A model generated the notes under the pieces. That model saw only the letters and a program-made list of their open reading frames with translations, had not been told where the DNA came from and made no database searches. From a virus: a stretch of 20,164 nucleotides of DNA. Position numbers and translations under genes: made by a program. Position 1 is the first letter of the stretch. Each line of letters starts with the position of its first letter. This document shows, in pieces, positions 12,521 to 19,198 of this stretch. The DNA lies in the IMG/VR virus record IMGVR_UViG_3300023180_000526, positions 1-20,164 of that record, one strand, 5' to 3'.

Positions 12521-13843
12521 TTAGATTGTGGTGGATTTTCCGAATGTGTCTCTAACCAACTTCATCGACGTATAAGAACCGTTAGTGTCAAAATGATGAC
12601 ATAATTCTTTTATCATATATAGACCGCTTTGCTCTTCATCAAACTCTCTTTTATCAGTTGATACTGTAGTCTTTGGAAATTTACATTCTATGATATCACC
12701 AGCCTTCAAATTTGTATTTGAGGGAACAGTCATGGTGAGAGTCTGAGTAAACAGAGAATTATATCTCATCACAGTCTGAGACTGATACTTCTCTGGATCA
12801 GAATTTGTATCATCTTTTGATACTCCTTTGTCTAGTGTTCCAACATCCAATATTTGTGTCATGATACGTGTAGGGACATCTGCAAGCGATACATCACTAC
12901 CCTCAGATATTGGTGGTAATTCAATATTCTTGCCTAAATTTTTAACTTTACCAGAATAATTTTGAGAACTGAATACTGATTTGTCTTTTGGTGTTAGTCC
13001 AAATGTAAGAGGATTTAAAAATATTCTCTGAGATGAATAAGTACCCATTCTCAAGTTTTCAAGTAAATTTTGATTCTTATTGGTTACATAAGAGAGAATA
13101 TTAAAATCTTGATCACTTGGAGAACTTGAAGCGCCTGTTTTGTAAATATACGTCGCCTTCGGATCTTTAGTCATCAATGAATCAATTGACCTAAAATCAT
13201 AACTATCCTTTGTTTGATAAAATACAAATCCTGCAGTAGAATCTTCTTGTGAAATATCAGGAACAGATTTTGATGCTAACCAAGTCAAGACTGTGAATGG
13301 TTTTCTCAGATTACCGATGAAACCATACTTATTTTGAGTTTTGTCAATATTTAATTCTCTCGATGTTTGTATTTTCTTTGTCAGTATATCCTCCACAGAT
13401 GTACTGATAGGAGAGGATGATGGATACTTTCTAGCAACTCTAGTTGTTTCATTAGTAATCGCTTCCCTAGAAACAAGATTCAATGTGAATACTTCTTTTT
13501 CACCTTCACTAACTACATTTGAGATTCCAGAAACATAAAGATATCTGTCTGCGAGAGTAGCAAAATCTATTCCTGGATTACTTTCTGTATTTCCTTCAAT
13601 CTTTAATGATACTCTTTCAGCACCTCTCAGAGGTAGACCATTATAAAGAGATTGTAATGATCCATCCTCACCTTCTACCGTGTTTCCAGTATTAACAACT
13701 ACCATTTTTGCAGTAATAGTAGGTGAAAATATGTCTTCATAGTAATCTACAGAAACGACACCAAGTCTTATATCAATTGCTTTCTTTTTATCATTAGACT
13801 CGATAATTATTTCCGCATATTGTGATGCATCTATTGCTGCCAT
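12521..13843 (-). CDS. gp27-like baseplate hub protein, 440 aa
   Basis: The ATG at 13843 overlaps the TAA of the 641-aa gene by one base. Length is close to T4 gp27 (391 aa), and it sits directly upstream of the gp5-like gene, where the hub partner is expected. N-terminal strands (YAEIIIESNDKKKAIDIRLG, TITAKMVVVNTG) and the later LTMTVPSNTNLKAGDIIECK followed by a short GLYMIKELCHHFD strand are typical of the tube-like domains of gp27 and late-control-D proteins: a beta barrel, a 'G-D-I-I' turn, and a final strand. Family knowledge: gp27 trimers form the torus that adapts the threefold spike to the sixfold tube. The assignment comes from motif pattern and context; direct similarity to T4 gp27 is weak by eye. 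An AATAAATA box lies 65 nt upstream. Confidence 0.7.
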   Translation of the reverse strand: MAAIDASQYAEIIIESNDKKKAIDIRLGVVSVDYYEDIFSPTITAKMVVVNTGNTVEGEDGSLQSLYNGLPLRGAERVSLKIEGNTESNPGIDFATLADRYLYVSGISNVVSEGEKEVFTLNLVSREAITNETTRVARKYPSSSPISTSVEDILTKKIQTSRELNIDKTQNKYGFIGNLRKPFTVLTWLASKSVPDISQEDSTAGFVFYQTKDSYDFRSIDSLMTKDPKATYIYKTGASSSPSDQDFNILSYVTNKNQNLLENLRMGTYSSQRIFLNPLTFGLTPKDKSVFSSQNYSGKVKNLGKNIELPPISEGSDVSLADVPTRIMTQILDVGTLDKGVSKDDTNSDPEKYQSQTVMRYNSLFTQTLTMTVPSNTNLKAGDIIECKFPKTTVSTDKREFDEEQSGLYMIKELCHHFDTNGSYTSMKLVRDTFGKSTTI

Positions 13844-15768
13844 TATGTGTATGCCAGTTCTACAAGTAAATTGGTTCTATTCAATTCTGCCATAACATTG
13901 TTTTTAGTATTTATTGTAGGTCGTGAAGGATCTGCAGAAGCGACCATCGGTTCTTGTTTTGGTGCTTCTGATTGTTGTCCTCCACCTCCAGCAAGAACTA
14001 TTGTCGTCTTTCCTTTTCTTTCTGCAGTAATGTTTGATGCTACCCTATTAGTTTCTGCAGTGATACTAGAAACTTGTGCCTTACTGACTACTTGACCATC
14101 TTTAGATATATCTGATTCTATTAGTGTTTTTCCTATCGAAAGTAAGTTCAAATATGGTTTTGGGTCAATTGCTTTTCCGCCTGGTCTAACTTCATAATGT
14201 AAATGAATGTCATAATTTCCACCAGTCTTACCTATTTCACCAATTGTAGTTCCAAAACGATACTCTTCTCCACTACGGACGTAAATCTTTGCCAGATGGG
14301 CAAACCAATACTGAGTTCCACCAGAATCTTTGATAATGACTAATTTTCCATATCCACCACTAGTTCCTGCAAAACTAACTCTACCATCTATTCTAGCACC
14401 GACATAGTATCCAGTTTGGTTACTAGTTCCAATATCAATTCCCTCATGTAGTCTTTTACCACCATCCCTTGATGCACCAAATCCTTGACCTGGGGTCAAT
14501 CCAACTCTTGGTGTTCCACCAGATGGTCCAGCGACATTAATTTCATCTCTTACAATAGTTCTCTTTCCAGGTTTTATTGGAGATATTGTTGCTTTTCTTG
14601 TGGCAGAAAGATTTTTTTGGAAAACATTTTTCAGATCTCCTTTGCGTTTAGTTGGTTGATTGTAATCATTTCCTGGGAATGATGCCCATGTTGGAGAAAG
14701 TCTTTTGATTACATTATCACTAAGTCCTTCTTTTTTAAGAATCTCAGGACTTACTCCATTTCTTGCGGCTAATCTTAATGCAAGTTCATCTTGGAATGCC
14801 TCATCAAATTTTCTATTTGTACTCATTTTAACAGATTTTGCAAGTCCAGTAATATCAATAAACTGATATGCACCAACTGCAGCAGATTGGTCCTCCTTTC
14901 CAGTACTATCAGTAAATTTACCTCGACCCTCTGCCAAAAATTTAGTTACTAACTCCTCAACTTCAGCAACAGTAAGTTCCGTTAAATCTCCACCATATTG
15001 TGAACCACCAAAGAAAGTACTATATCCCTGCGGTCCAGCAGTTCCTTCAGCAAATCTAATTGTCTTTAACAGTGCTTGCTGTTCAGGAGTTCCATATCCA
15101 GATGTATCATCAAATTCATCTAAATTTACATCATCACCAAAGAAATAACTCATTGGGTCTTTGAAAATTCTAAGCATCTGGTCAAGATTGGATTCCATAT
15201 CCCTTGTACCTCTCCCAATATCCTCCATAGCCTTTTGAACTCTACCACTCTGATCTGTAAAATCAAACTTTGTAATATTAACAATCACACCTCTAAGCAA
15301 ATCTCCAAATCCTTTGAGAGTATTAATAAGACCATCTCTAAAGTTTGAAAGAACTTTGAATAGATTCTGCACTCTCTCTATCAGAGTTTGTGCCATTTTA
15401 AGAATTTTCGGTAGATTATTAATTAACCATCCAACAAGAAGAGTTCCAAAATAGTCTAAAATTCGCCCAAAAAATCCTTTTGTACTAGAGGCAATAACTT
15501 TTCCAGTTCTTTTAACTGCTCCAGCAAGTCCAGAACTTGCTTCAATAATGTCTTCCTTTTGCCTCAATTGTGCAGCATCTCTTCTCTTTTTGAATATTTT
15601 TTGATCCTCAGATAATGCTTTTCTTCTAAATGCAGTGCTTTTTACTATACTTTTATTAATTTTTACGGCAACAGTTCTAGTTGCTGCCATGTTTTTTGTC
15701 AGCGTGTTTGCAGACTTCTGAATTTTCTTTATACTAATTGAAGACCTAAGTAGTGATTGATTTGCCAT
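13843..15768 (-). CDS. Tail-associated peptidoglycan hydrolase: GH104-like transglycosylase plus M23 endopeptidase, 641 aa
   Basis: ATG at 15768, one base after the upstream TAG. Residues 1-100 are basic and helical. A hydrophobic segment YFGTLLVGWLINN (106-118) is followed by more helix to about 170. Residues about 231-385 resemble the lambda R-type transglycosylase (GH104): IRFAEGT with candidate catalytic E241, AVGAYQF, and WASFPGNDYNQ near 359-369. Residues about 435-545 form an M23/LytM zinc endopeptidase: HEGID (H441, D445), WFAH (H491) and HLH (522-524) supply the expected zinc ligands and catalytic histidines. It would cut both glycan and peptide during DNA entry, replacing the lysozyme missing from the gp5-like protein. 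The N-terminal half could make it part of the tape-measure assembly. The M23 call is firm; GH104 is by pattern. Confidence 0.88.
   Translation of the reverse strand: MANQSLLRSSISIKKIQKSANTLTKNMAATRTVAVKINKSIVKSTAFRRKALSEDQKIFKKRRDAAQLRQKEDIIEASSGLAGAVKRTGKVIASSTKGFFGRILDYFGTLLVGWLINNLPKILKMAQTLIERVQNLFKVLSNFRDGLINTLKGFGDLLRGVIVNITKFDFTDQSGRVQKAMEDIGRGTRDMESNLDQMLRIFKDPMSYFFGDDVNLDEFDDTSGYGTPEQQALLKTIRFAEGTAGPQGYSTFFGGSQYGGDLTELTVAEVEELVTKFLAEGRGKFTDSTGKEDQSAAVGAYQFIDITGLAKSVKMSTNRKFDEAFQDELALRLAARNGVSPEILKKEGLSDNVIKRLSPTWASFPGNDYNQPTKRKGDLKNVFQKNLSATRKATISPIKPGKRTIVRDEINVAGPSGGTPRVGLTPGQGFGASRDGGKRLHEGIDIGTSNQTGYYVGARIDGRVSFAGTSGGYGKLVIIKDSGGTQYWFAHLAKIYVRSGEEYRFGTTIGEIGKTGGNYDIHLHYEVRPGGKAIDPKPYLNLLSIGKTLIESDISKDGQVVSKAQVSSITAETNRVASNITAERKGKTTIVLAGGGGQQSEAPKQEPMVASADPSRPTINTKNNVMAELNRTNLLVELAYT
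13908..13915 (-). promoter_or_regulatory. Candidate late promoter box AATAAATA
   Basis: Lies in the 3' end of the 641-aa gene, 65 nt before the gp27-like start. Confidence 0.35.
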
Positions 15769-15769
15769 A

Positions 15770-17395
15770 CTATCCTACCATGTCGATAACACCATACATG
15801 GCGACTGTGCTTGGAAGATAAATGTTTCCTTTATCGGAAGTATCGAATGTTGGAACGAAAACTGCAGAATCTGAACTGACAGATCTTGATGGGGGCGCTT
15901 GTGCTAGTTCTTTCTTTTGCATTTCACGAATTGGTGCAGTAATTATGTTCGGTGCTGGTTCTTGCAAATTACTAAGGGACTGTGAGACCATACTTCTATC
16001 TGCAGATGTCTTCACTGGTGCTATCTGTGCCTGAGCAGTTTTAGTTTCTTCAGGTTCTTTTGGTGTCAAATCTGAATCAGATACATTAAAAGCAATATCT
16101 CCAAAATTAGATGTAGCAAATACTCCATCTGCTCCAAAAAATGGTTTCGTATCTATCAATGGTGTCATTGCCTGTGTGTTAGAAGAAACTTTCTTTTCTT
16201 CTTCGACCTTCTTTTCTTCAGTCTCAGTTTTATTCTCCTCAAGTTTAGATTGAGTATCTTCTGCTTCTGCGGGTTTTATTTCTGCTTTATTCTCTACCTT
16301 CTCTTCACCACTAAACATAGACTTCATACTTTCAAGACCAGATTTTCCAAGATCTGAACCATAAAAATATGCTGGTAATGATAGTAAAAATCCATACTTA
16401 CCAAATAGTGCTTTACCTGCTGTACCAGCAATAGTACTGAGAACACCTCCAGTCAAACCACCAGCAATCGCCCTGTCTGGACTTTCACCTGATAATAATT
16501 CAGCACCTGTTCCAAAAGCAATATTAGTTTTAAGACCTGGCAATAATCCTTTCAGTCTACCAGCAAGTGTCGGTTTTGGCGATGCAGTTTGACTTAAAGA
16601 ACCTGCTGTAGACGAAGTTGTGCCACCAGTTGTAGTCGTAGTAGTCGTAGTCGTAGTAGTAGCTTTACCACCTCCAGTTTTAACAGCACCAAAACCTTTT
16701 CTTATGCCATTGAAAATTAATTGTGGCAATTTTAAAAATAATCCTGTACCAACTGCACCAAGTATCTTAATACCTACTCTCGATAATGTGATAATTAGTG
16801 CATTTACTCCAACATTAATCGCTAAGAATATTCCACCAACAATTCCTAAAGTCGCAAGAACATTATTTTTTATTTCCTCAAGCTTTTCTTTATTACCCTC
16901 AGAATAAGCTTTGATTGTTTGGAATCCTTGATTCAACAACCAACCAGCAAACAGAGTGGTAAGATAAGTCATTACACTCTGCAAAGTAAATTGCACTTTC
17001 GGTGCAATTGCCGCAATTGGTTTCGATAATGCAGACTGTATCTTCCTCTCAATTAAACTTTCTTTTCCTTCAAGAATTTTTTGTTGAGCTAATAATCTTT
17101 GTTGATTCTGTTCTTGTAATACTTTTTGCTTTTCTAATGCTTGGTTTACTTCCAAATTTTGAAGTACCGCCCTTAATGTTGTATCAATAGCAGTCATCTG
17201 CGAATTGATACCATTCAAACTTTGAGATACTCGCTCTAACTGAAGAGAATTTGCACGTATCAATCCTGTAGTAATAGGATCTGGTTGTGTGGTTTCCTGT
17301 TGCTGCGGAACAAATTTGCCCGTGAAAACAGATGACGAAACCCTCGACCTTGCTACTCTTATTCCTCCTAATATGGGCGATGATAACTCAGCCAT
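15770..17395 (-). CDS. Coiled-coil hydrophobic tail protein, candidate tape measure (541 aa)
   Basis: ATG at 17395, overlapping the end of the 57-aa ORF by 8 nt. Residues 50-122 are a predicted coiled coil rich in Gln, Glu, Leu and Lys. Hydrophobic segments follow at about 141-154 (MTYLTTLFAGWLLN), 180-203 and 209-229, then an 11-residue Thr tract (246-256), a Gly/Ala-rich hydrophobic part (about 290-350), and a Glu/Lys-rich acidic stretch near 365-405. The C-terminal third is low complexity. The mix of coiled coil and internal hydrophobic helices, placed just after a chaperone-like pair and before hub genes, matches the usual tape-measure position; T4 gp29 is 590 aa. Clear gp29 sequence similarity was not recognised. 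The segment around GWLLN resembles one in the next gene, so the two may act together. Confidence 0.75.
   Translation of the reverse strand: MAELSSPILGGIRVARSRVSSSVFTGKFVPQQQETTQPDPITTGLIRANSLQLERVSQSLNGINSQMTAIDTTLRAVLQNLEVNQALEKQKVLQEQNQQRLLAQQKILEGKESLIERKIQSALSKPIAAIAPKVQFTLQSVMTYLTTLFAGWLLNQGFQTIKAYSEGNKEKLEEIKNNVLATLGIVGGIFLAINVGVNALIITLSRVGIKILGAVGTGLFLKLPQLIFNGIRKGFGAVKTGGGKATTTTTTTTTTTGGTTSSTAGSLSQTASPKPTLAGRLKGLLPGLKTNIAFGTGAELLSGESPDRAIAGGLTGGVLSTIAGTAGKALFGKYGFLLSLPAYFYGSDLGKSGLESMKSMFSGEEKVENKAEIKPAEAEDTQSKLEENKTETEEKKVEEEKKVSSNTQAMTPLIDTKPFFGADGVFATSNFGDIAFNVSDSDLTPKEPEETKTAQAQIAPVKTSADRSMVSQSLSNLQEPAPNIITAPIREMQKKELAQAPPSRSVSSDSAVFVPTFDTSDKGNIYLPSTVAMYGVIDMVG
16628..16660 (-). 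repeat. ACT/ACG trinucleotide tract encoding 11 threonines
   Basis: Eleven consecutive Thr codons (ACT, ACG, one ACA) code residues 246-256 of the 541-aa protein and are flanked by Gly-rich sequence. It is a probable flexible linker and a site where replication slippage could change length in frame. Confidence 0.85.
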
Positions 17396-17561
17396 TGAAT
17401 TGATTCTTTAGGTTTTCTTCTTCAATATACTGTTGGAGGAAAGTTAGATAAATTTCTTTCTCCCAAGGTATCATATTTTCTAGCTCTGTCAAGCTATATT
17501 TATGGTGTTGCATCAAAGCAAAATTAATTTTGAAGTATGACTCAAGGTCAGTATGAGCCAT
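17388..17561 (-). CDS. Small ORF, 57 aa: tail assembly chaperone-like, probably also made as a -1 frameshift extension
   Basis: ATG at 17561, TGA ending at 17388. The ORF fills the 168-bp space between the gp26/gp51-like gene (TAA at 17564, 2 nt upstream) and the 541-aa gene (overlap 8 nt), where no other gene fits. The protein begins MAHTDLESYF, is acidic and helical, and contains MIPWEKEIYLTFLQQYIEEE at residues 30-49. A 'PWE-x-EIY ... EEE' helix just upstream of a tape-measure gene resembles small tail assembly chaperones. The reading frame is -1 relative to the upstream gene and is open back to its slippery heptamer, so it may be expressed as a 298-aa fusion as well as, or instead of, from its own ATG, which lies inside a predicted hairpin. 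No Shine-Dalgarno site is visible. Confidence 0.8.
   Translation of the reverse strand: MAHTDLESYFKINFALMQHHKYSLTELENMIPWEKEIYLTFLQQYIEEENLKNQFNG
17497..17504 (-). promoter_or_regulatory. Candidate late promoter box CATAAATA
   Basis: Lies inside the 57-aa ORF, 102 nt upstream of the 541-aa gene. It is one of only five ATAAATA matches on the minus strand. Confidence 0.3.
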
Positions 17562-17576
17562 ACTTACGCGAAAAAA
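17533..17576 (-). promoter_or_regulatory. Candidate programmed -1 ribosomal frameshift signal
   Basis: The slippery heptamer T_TTT_TTC lies at 17576-17570 in the correct phase (frame-0 codons TCT TTT TTC GCG TAA). After a 4-nt spacer, AAGTATGGCTC (17565-17555) can pair with GAGTCATACTT (17543-17533): ten Watson-Crick pairs and one G-U pair around an 11-nt loop. A smaller alternative hairpin is AGTATG/CATACT with a 3-nt loop. A -1 slip continues CGC GTA AGT ATG without a stop into the 57-aa frame, giving 238 + 3 + 57 = 298 residues. The spacer is slightly short against the usual 5-9 nt, but the lowest A-U pairs could open. Confidence 0.7.
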
Positions 17577-18283
17577 GATGCCAATCCTTCCAGAACTACA
17601 TCACTCTCAACACCAGTATTAGGATTTTTAACTTTCATTGTATGTGAAAGTTTTGGCATTGTCTCGAAGAACTTTTCAATTTCCTTAAACTGCTTTGAAT
17701 TCAAAGATTCTACAAACTCATTCAATTCTTTCTTTGAACAATCTTTTGCAGACCAAGATTCATCATCACTATAAATTTGCTCGATGCATGATGCAATTAA
17801 TTCAAATGTTTGTGCAACACCAATCTCATCATCGGCAGTAAAGTTATTTTTGATAAACTCACTCATTGATGGATATTTCATTCTCAAGATGTGAGTATCA
17901 TCAAGTTTGATATCTTTGTTATGCTTTTCATCTATGTAAACTTTTATCTCATCCAATGTAATTACAATCGGCACTTGTGTCACACCATCATCTGGACAAG
18001 TAACCAATACTTCAACTTCTTCACCAACAGATTTACCTCTAACATTCAAGAACAAATATTCAATATCAAATGTAGATAATTCATCTACTTTTACTCCACG
18101 TGTCAAAATGCAAGAACTTAGAACATCTTTGATTGCATTGGTGATTTGTTTATTATCTTCACTTTCCATCGCAATGATGAGAACTTTTTCTTCTTTAACT
18201 AGAAAAGGACGATACTTAATTTTTTTCCCAGTTGAAGGTAATTCCAACTCATATGTTGGTGTAGATATTTTTGGTAATGGCAT
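17564..18283 (-). CDS. gp26/gp51-family baseplate hub protein, 239 aa
   Basis: ATG at 18283, TAA at 17564. The N-terminus (PTYELELPSTGKKIKYRPF followed by LVKEEKVLIIAMES) is the signature of the T4 baseplate family that includes gp26 and gp51: 'lP-S-tGk..yRPFlVKEEK'. Residues 50-75 form the helix and Cys-containing segment SSCILTRGVKVDELSTFDIE, and the C-terminal half is acidic and helical. Length fits T4 gp26 (208 aa) and gp51 (249 aa). In T4 these proteins help assemble the hub, and gp51 is a catalyst absent from the finished particle, so a chaperone-type role is plausible here. The last codons contain T_TTT_TTC and the product may be extended by -1 frameshifting into the 57-aa ORF. An AATAAATA box lies 29 nt upstream. 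Confidence 0.85.
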   Translation of the reverse strand: MPLPKISTPTYELELPSTGKKIKYRPFLVKEEKVLIIAMESEDNKQITNAIKDVLSSCILTRGVKVDELSTFDIEYLFLNVRGKSVGEEVEVLVTCPDDGVTQVPIVITLDEIKVYIDEKHNKDIKLDDTHILRMKYPSMSEFIKNNFTADDEIGVAQTFELIASCIEQIYSDDESWSAKDCSKKELNEFVESLNSKQFKEIEKFFETMPKLSHTMKVKNPNTGVESDVVLEGLASFFA

Positions 18284-18310: not shown

Positions 18311-19198
18311 TTATTTATTGATGATATTTGATCCACTACCCGATATACTACTACCTGATATACTTGATAATGGACTTGTTGATAGTTTTGTATCCCCATA
18401 ACCAGTAAGATTATTATTATAGACTCCACCATTAAGAATTAATGGTTCATTTGTGCCAGTAAAACCAATTACGGGAGAACTCTTATCTGTACCCGTTTTT
18501 TGTGTAGAAGCAGAAAGAGATCCTTTACCTGAAAGAGCCTTTCCTACACTTCCAAGTACAGATTGAAGATTATTTGAAGTACCATTATTAATTGATTTGC
18601 TATCCACAGATCCACATACATATCTTTCATAATTGAACGAAACACCGACCTTCAGAATCTCAGAAGAATCATAACTTACTGGCATTGCGTTTATTGTTTT
18701 TGGATAAAGACCTTTAAAGTTATACTCAATGTATCTATTATAATCTCTATCAAATTTTACAATCTTCATTGAATTGCATTTATACTCTTCAGGATATTGC
18801 ATTCTAAAGTGTGTATAATCTGATAGTCTACTAGCACTCGATGCATCATGCATAAATTCCATCCAGTGCTCAAAGAATTTAATTGCTTTATAACTCCTAT
18901 CAACATAAAATGATAAATCGATAGGTGTAAATGTCCTAGTATGGGGCATTGATTCTGCCACACCCATATAATCACCTACAATATCTGCAGTTGCATATGA
19001 ACTTCCTGGAAGCGATGCAGAGTGGCACAATAAAGTAATATCAGAACTTACAAATGATGAGAACACTCCCCTTGCGGAAAGATGTCCCATTAATTTTGGT
19101 TTTAAACCACTAAATTTAACCTCAAAATGAGATGTTTGTGCCAAAGTTGTCAGAACTGGTTTAAAATCTGATATCTTTTTCGGACTAGGTGCTGGCAC
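18311..19198 (-). CDS. Tail-tube-fold baseplate protein (gp54/gp48-like), 295 aa
   Basis: The start is GTG at 19198: an in-frame TAG lies three codons upstream, and the first internal ATG (residue 37) would delete the first tube strand. Residues 22-240 show the tail-tube pattern: HFEVKFSG, LLCHSASLPGSS (57-67), RTFTPIDLSFYVD (88-100), KAIKFFEHWMEFM (104-116), and later strands SMKIVKFDRDYNRYIEYNFK and VGVSFNYERYV. The C-terminal 80 residues are Ser/Gly/Asn-rich with NNLQSVLGSVGKALSG, similar in style to the T4 gp54 tail. Family knowledge: gp54 starts and gp48 caps the tail tube on the baseplate hub. I cannot separate the two, and a tube paralogue is also possible. It is first in the minus-strand unit, about 34 nt from a CTAAATA box. 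Confidence 0.78.
   Translation of the reverse strand: MPAPSPKKISDFKPVLTTLAQTSHFEVKFSGLKPKLMGHLSARGVFSSFVSSDITLLCHSASLPGSSYATADIVGDYMGVAESMPHTRTFTPIDLSFYVDRSYKAIKFFEHWMEFMHDASSASRLSDYTHFRMQYPEEYKCNSMKIVKFDRDYNRYIEYNFKGLYPKTINAMPVSYDSSEILKVGVSFNYERYVCGSVDSKSINNGTSNNLQSVLGSVGKALSGKGSLSASTQKTGTDKSSPVIGFTGTNEPLILNGGVYNNNLTGYGDTKLSTSPLSSISGSSISGSGSNIINK
18312..18319 (-). promoter_or_regulatory. Candidate T4-type late promoter box AATAAATA
   Basis: Matches NATAAATA (T4 late consensus TATAAATA). It overlaps the last codons of the 295-aa gene and lies 29 nt before the ATG of the gp26/gp51-like gene, a suitable late-leader spacing. Confidence 0.5.

Follow-up and report, generated by a model that had tools for sequence, protein, structure and literature searches.

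In long-tailed phages, G-T frameshifting is widely conserved, except in T4 (PMC5009743, 2016). For T4, a listing of hub assembly chaperones includes gp26 and gp51 (PMC3004832). Vladimirov, Gautam and Davidson (2022; Virology 566:9-15) identified the tail assembly chaperones of T4-like phages. As later papers relay that work, some T4-like phages do not frameshift but encode the short and long forms in separate genes (PMC10885494, citing Vladimirov et al. 2022), and poly-T slippery sequences occur in the TAC-N genes of T4-like phages (PMC12846349, citing Vladimirov et al. 2022). The original prediction for the locus studied here had known of no description of such frameshifting for T4-type hub genes, an impression that does not stand, given how the two citing papers present the coverage of T4-like tail assembly chaperones (PMC10885494, PMC12846349). 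Frameshifting in these chaperones is not new, and the locus described here is a well-supported example of it. The abstract of the study that identified them reportedly states that frameshifting appears conserved in several T4-like groups. As for the signal itself, U_UUU_UUC is of the H_HH.U_UU.Y type, which frameshifts efficiently in E. coli, and Shine-Dalgarno (SD)-like elements 6-17 nt upstream have been searched for as stimulators (PMC4066793). The dnaX cassette has the same three-part layout as the one we describe below (PMC3711429).

The window, by which we mean the whole 20,164-nt stretch of viral DNA that was analysed, carries on its minus strand a 239-aa ORF (17564..18283) whose 3' end reads GCA TCT TTT TTC GCG TAA. 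This ORF matches Pfam T4_baseplate (E 1.8e-76) and phrog_150 (E 1.2e-83), and we read it as TAC-N, the putative short tail assembly chaperone, gp26-like and equivalent to lambda gpG. An in-phase T_TTT_TTC had been predicted near the end of this gene, and it is present at 17576-17570 on the minus strand (feature 17570..17576). The heptamer does precede the zero-frame stop TAA (17564..17566, minus strand), as predicted, but the distance given, five codons, was loose, with one sense codon (GCG) intervening. In the −1 frame, a putative TAC-C extension (17388..17570, minus strand; the lambda T equivalent) consists of RVS plus a 57-aa ORF (17388-17561, minus strand). No stop interrupts this frame between the heptamer and the end of that ORF; it reads F-F-R-V-S-M-A-H..., and the full product has 298 aa; here our reading of the sequence agrees with the continuous frame and the 298-aa and 239-aa forms proposed originally. 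The 57-aa ORF has a match in phrog_634 (E 4.9e-25). It also matches phrog_150 at the C-terminal end of that family, an indication that some phrog_150 members carry the short form and the downstream domain in a single protein, as T4 gp51 does. Over all window genes, in-phase X_XXY_YYZ heptamers number 33 in 5,682 codons, and exactly two of them are T_TTT_TTC.

On comparative evidence, we consider it very likely that two chaperone forms come from this one gene via a −1 slip on T_TTT_TTC, with stimulators probably assisting. Most ribosomes would stop at the TAA, yielding the 239-aa short form (TAC-N). A fraction would slip back one base, with tRNA-Phe on the TTT and TTC of T_TTT_TTC, and these ribosomes would continue into the 298-aa long form (TAC-NC), which ends in a C-terminal domain of about 60 aa. 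An SD-like sequence upstream and a hairpin just downstream would probably stimulate the slip in the fashion of dnaX. By analogy with lambda gpG/gpGT, both forms may cover the tape measure protein and recruit tail tube subunits to it. We infer the slippage itself, its rate, the effect of the stimulators and the role in assembly from features that comparison of sequences supports directly, namely the heptamer, the −1 frame, the domain homology, the biased upstream codons and the excess downstream structure.

For this comparison, 235 loci were scored, comprising viral-contig relatives and annotated phage records with a complete short ORF. P-RSM6, ACG-2014d, OLIVR6, QD01 and MA01 served as further seeds for the viral-contig relatives. 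When Agrobacterium and Vibrio phages were used as seeds, the viral-contig scans yielded only 1 and 2 loci, so most of the 235 loci are of marine cyanophage type, and other lineages are represented by few examples. Among the first 80 viral-contig relatives (70-99% identity), every printed junction has TTT TTC after a T-ending codon, together with a −1 extension. Conservation of the heptamer and of the −1 frame in homologues, which the original prediction had proposed as a check, is borne out: T_TTT_TTC is kept in 233/235 loci, and wherever the downstream domain was found (234/234 loci) it is in the −1 frame. The spacing from heptamer to stop is identical in 219/233 loci, and the −1 extension is 56-69 codons long (194 loci).

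In the 200 non-redundant heptamer loci, Phe-Phe is always coded TTT TTC (200/200), and the codon before it, which may be AGT, TCT, GCT, GAT, AAT or GGT (Ser, Ala, Asp, Asn, Gly), always ends in T (200/200). Given codon usage, log10 P is −50 for the invariant T and −133 for the invariant TTT TTC, values that treat loci as independent and are overstated by shared ancestry. Within the window clade, the codon before the heptamer has an entropy of 1.57, 1.07 and 0 at bases 1, 2 and 3, the reverse of normal coding sequence. Because the third base of this codon and TTT TTC are invariant while the first two bases vary, T_TTT_TTC is, judging from codon choice, under selection as a site. The canonical heptamer is absent in two of the 235 loci, those of Vibrio phage K476 (CTT TTT G) and Salmonella phage Mooltan (A ATT TTC). 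Both have an overlapping −1 ORF without it (K476, L088 2208-2402; Mooltan, L090 2229-2399), and their lack of the canonical heptamer, with the −1 domain kept in Mooltan, counts against the frameshift reading. In HTVC008M, which was read separately, TAA comes right after TTT TTT.

Upstream of the heptamer by 8 nt lies the SD-like sequence GGAAGGA (17585..17591, minus strand), a candidate stimulator that is GGAGG in most relatives. Among the relatives, the 8-mer ends about 7-10 nt before the heptamer, and its pairing with the anti-SD is −7.5 kcal/mol at 7 nt and −7.3 kcal/mol at 9 nt, compared with −5.2 and −4.2 kcal/mol in synonymous controls. Codon choice is biased accordingly at the element: Glu is coded GAG in 162/193 loci versus 32% in the rest of the gene (log10 P −49), and Gly is GGA or GGG in 134/198 versus 43% (log10 P −12). 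The window's own GGAAGGA is weaker than the element of most relatives, with a best 8-mer of −5.5 kcal/mol. An SD-like upstream element at this locus is perhaps unreported, and of the whole finding it is the likeliest part to be new.

Downstream, a stem-loop (17533..17565, minus strand) is a candidate second stimulator. Both the 4-nt spacer and the 11-bp hairpin with one G-U pair that had been predicted were found: after the spacer GCGT, positions 17565-17555 pair with 17543-17533 around a loop at 17554-17544, and the region has a minimum free energy (MFE) of −15.2 kcal/mol. Only 33/70 distinct relatives keep the outermost A-U pair, which leaves a conserved stem of 10 bp. Across 199 loci, the downstream RNA averages −11.7 kcal/mol versus −5.2 kcal/mol in controls that keep the −1 frame protein. 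The MFE z score against synonymous shuffles averages −4.0 for the window clade (65 loci), −3.0 for the full 199 loci and −2.5 for those outside the clade, and is below −2 in 149/199. The stem of the window clade is nearly uniform (91% of cells pair), and a single pair is changed on both sides (UA 45, GC 18, AU 2). Compensatory stem changes, the other part of the check proposed originally, are therefore present at that one pair but at that pair only. Because only one pair changes on both sides, the stem is backed more by excess stability than by covariation. A single hairpin common to the whole group was considered and rejected, as other lineages form different stems. One locus of the window clade (L046) has neither the stem nor the ATG of the 57-aa ORF and keeps the heptamer.

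The relation to T4 can be drawn from profile alignments. The short form aligns with T4-group gp26 (E 1.6e-23, 203 columns) and with gp51 residues 6-200 (E 7.9e-11), and the −1 domain aligns with gp51 199-245 (hhalign E 3.6e-6). Because the alignments match those parts, T4 gp26 is, by homology, the short form alone, and gp51 is the short form with the downstream domain fused to it in a separate gene. This strengthens the G/GT (here TAC-N/TAC-NC) analogy of the original prediction. Long and short forms lie on two separate genes in T4, RB69, AbTZA1 and Aeromonas phage 25, unlike the one gene and −1 extension of the window; the two-gene arrangement is a feature of the T4 subgroup and not of the whole gp26/gp51 family. 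In T4 and RB69 gp26, Phe-Phe is kept as TTC TTT after GAG or GAA, with no heptamer, and the heptamer is also absent from AbTZA1 and Aeromonas phage 25. As far as homology can tell, these four phages are natural negative controls, in which a second gene supplies the long form and the slip site is gone.

It is tempting to read the 57-aa ORF as a separate gene, annotated gp51 or "baseplate hub assembly catalyst", on whose own ATG ribosomes reinitiate after terminating at the upstream stop. Records of P-SSM2, S-PM2, P-RSM6 and others annotate it in this way, its ATG in the window lies 2 nt after the stop, and an in-frame ATG is found near the slip in 177/200 loci. However, the other 23 loci keep the heptamer but lack any in-frame ATG within 8 codons of the slip, and several of them are without any listed start codon near it; on these losses, independent initiation was rejected as the main route. 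The Met can be accounted for by a position of the domain that takes a hydrophobic residue (M/L). The ATG lies buried in the stem of the window clade, and this, together with the natural loss of the ATG where the heptamer is kept, upholds the earlier argument that a hairpin over the ATG favours frameshift entry. In addition, the downstream domain is covalently fused in T4, the annotated start of HTVC008M gp51 falls well inside the conserved domain, and a separate gene would leave the invariant T before TTT TTC unexplained. We consider this reading very improbable. Less probable again is transcriptional slippage on the T6 run, by which a fraction of the mRNAs would be frame-shifted. The homopolymer run would suit it and the protein products would look identical, but the fixed spacing of an SD-like element and a hairpin points to the ribosome. 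Six Ts are also short for transcriptional slippage. A heptamer arising by chance, or one gene broken in two by an indel from sequencing or assembly, might be suspected in a single 20-kb environmental record with a homopolymer, but it is already refuted by conservation, as the same junction is repeated in isolate genomes (P-SSM2, S-PM2, S-CAM1 and others) and in 233/235 loci, and its probability is negligible.

The next gene, of 541 aa (15770..17395, minus strand), begins inside the end of the −1 frame ORF and is a tape-measure candidate by position. Pfam and PHROG searches gave it no significant family or sequence match, and blastp against T4 gp29 and the S-PM2, P-SSM2 and HTVC008M tape-measure candidates gave nothing convincing. 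It has a long threonine run and hydrophobic stretches. In HTVC008M, the same gene pair is followed downstream by an annotated "putative tail tape measure". Upstream of the chaperone gene, a 295-aa ORF (18311-19198, minus strand, listed with a GTG start) matches the tail tube protein family Phage_TTP_2 (E 1.1e-21) and phrog_45. Elsewhere on the minus strand, a 641-aa ORF (13843-15768) carries an M23 peptidase domain as well as a region that hits an endolysin PHROG, with an N-terminal part that resembles P-SSM2 ORF PSSM2_017, and a 905-aa ORF (1-2715) that runs off the record end has collagen-like QGx repeats with a recurring LSNFQG motif. The AlphaFold2 model of the short form has a pLDDT of 85.8. 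A PDB fold search with this model gave no significant match, the HK97 TAC 2ob9 appearing only at E 1.7 (prob 0.20), and the short-form profile found nothing relevant among PDB sequences. NCBIfam has no family for either the 239-aa or the 57-aa ORF.

In the records examined, the extension appears as a stand-alone "gp51 catalyst", truncated or unannotated, and the long chaperone is therefore absent from gene lists. Annotation of the −1 domain is inconsistent: that of HTVC008M (L239 2561-2698) begins well inside the domain, and in ACG-2014d, S-CAM1 and Aeromonas AP1 (L093, L241 and L086) it is unannotated. A frameshift would explain the identity of the short gp51, as well as how the two hub chaperones of T4 correspond to a single gene in other phages. 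The conserved three-part signal offers a comparative set for how phages set the short-to-long ratio, with T4 as a case where that ratio must be set another way.

How does this locus compare with known systems? The T4-like chaperones of Vladimirov et al. (2022), as described in the papers citing them, belong to the same gene family and have the same short and long forms. T4 itself, unlike the window, has two separate genes (26 and 51). In lambda gpG/gpGT, a −1 slip near the 3' end of one gene, upstream of the tape measure gene, gives a short and a long chaperone; the likeness lies in the slip proposed here and in a placement before a tape-measure candidate. We claim no sequence relation between the lambda and window chaperones, and a like function in the window phage is presumed by analogy. 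The lambda slippery sequence differs from T_TTT_TTC. The TAC locus of phage Adele (Vandenendeviridae/Andersonviridae; PMC12846349) has a conserved −1 frame and a T-rich motif at the end of TAC-N, and its downstream ORF is misannotated as a separate gene, as in relatives of the window; it differs in its motif, GTTTTT, and in belonging to different phage families. The E. coli dnaX cassette shares the SD-like upstream stimulator, the tandem-slip heptamer and the downstream hairpin, but its heptamer is A_AAA_AAG and its product is truncated, whereas that of the window would be extended. Of the dnaX-like parts, the SD-like element is strong in relatives and weaker in the window, and the hairpin is variable in other lineages. 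Altogether, we think it rather likely, with less assurance than for the slip, that in cyanophage-type T4-like phages a dnaX-like signal of GGAGG, T_TTT_TTC and hairpin drives the chaperone frameshift and is under selection throughout the group, a layout that may be undescribed for their tail chaperones.
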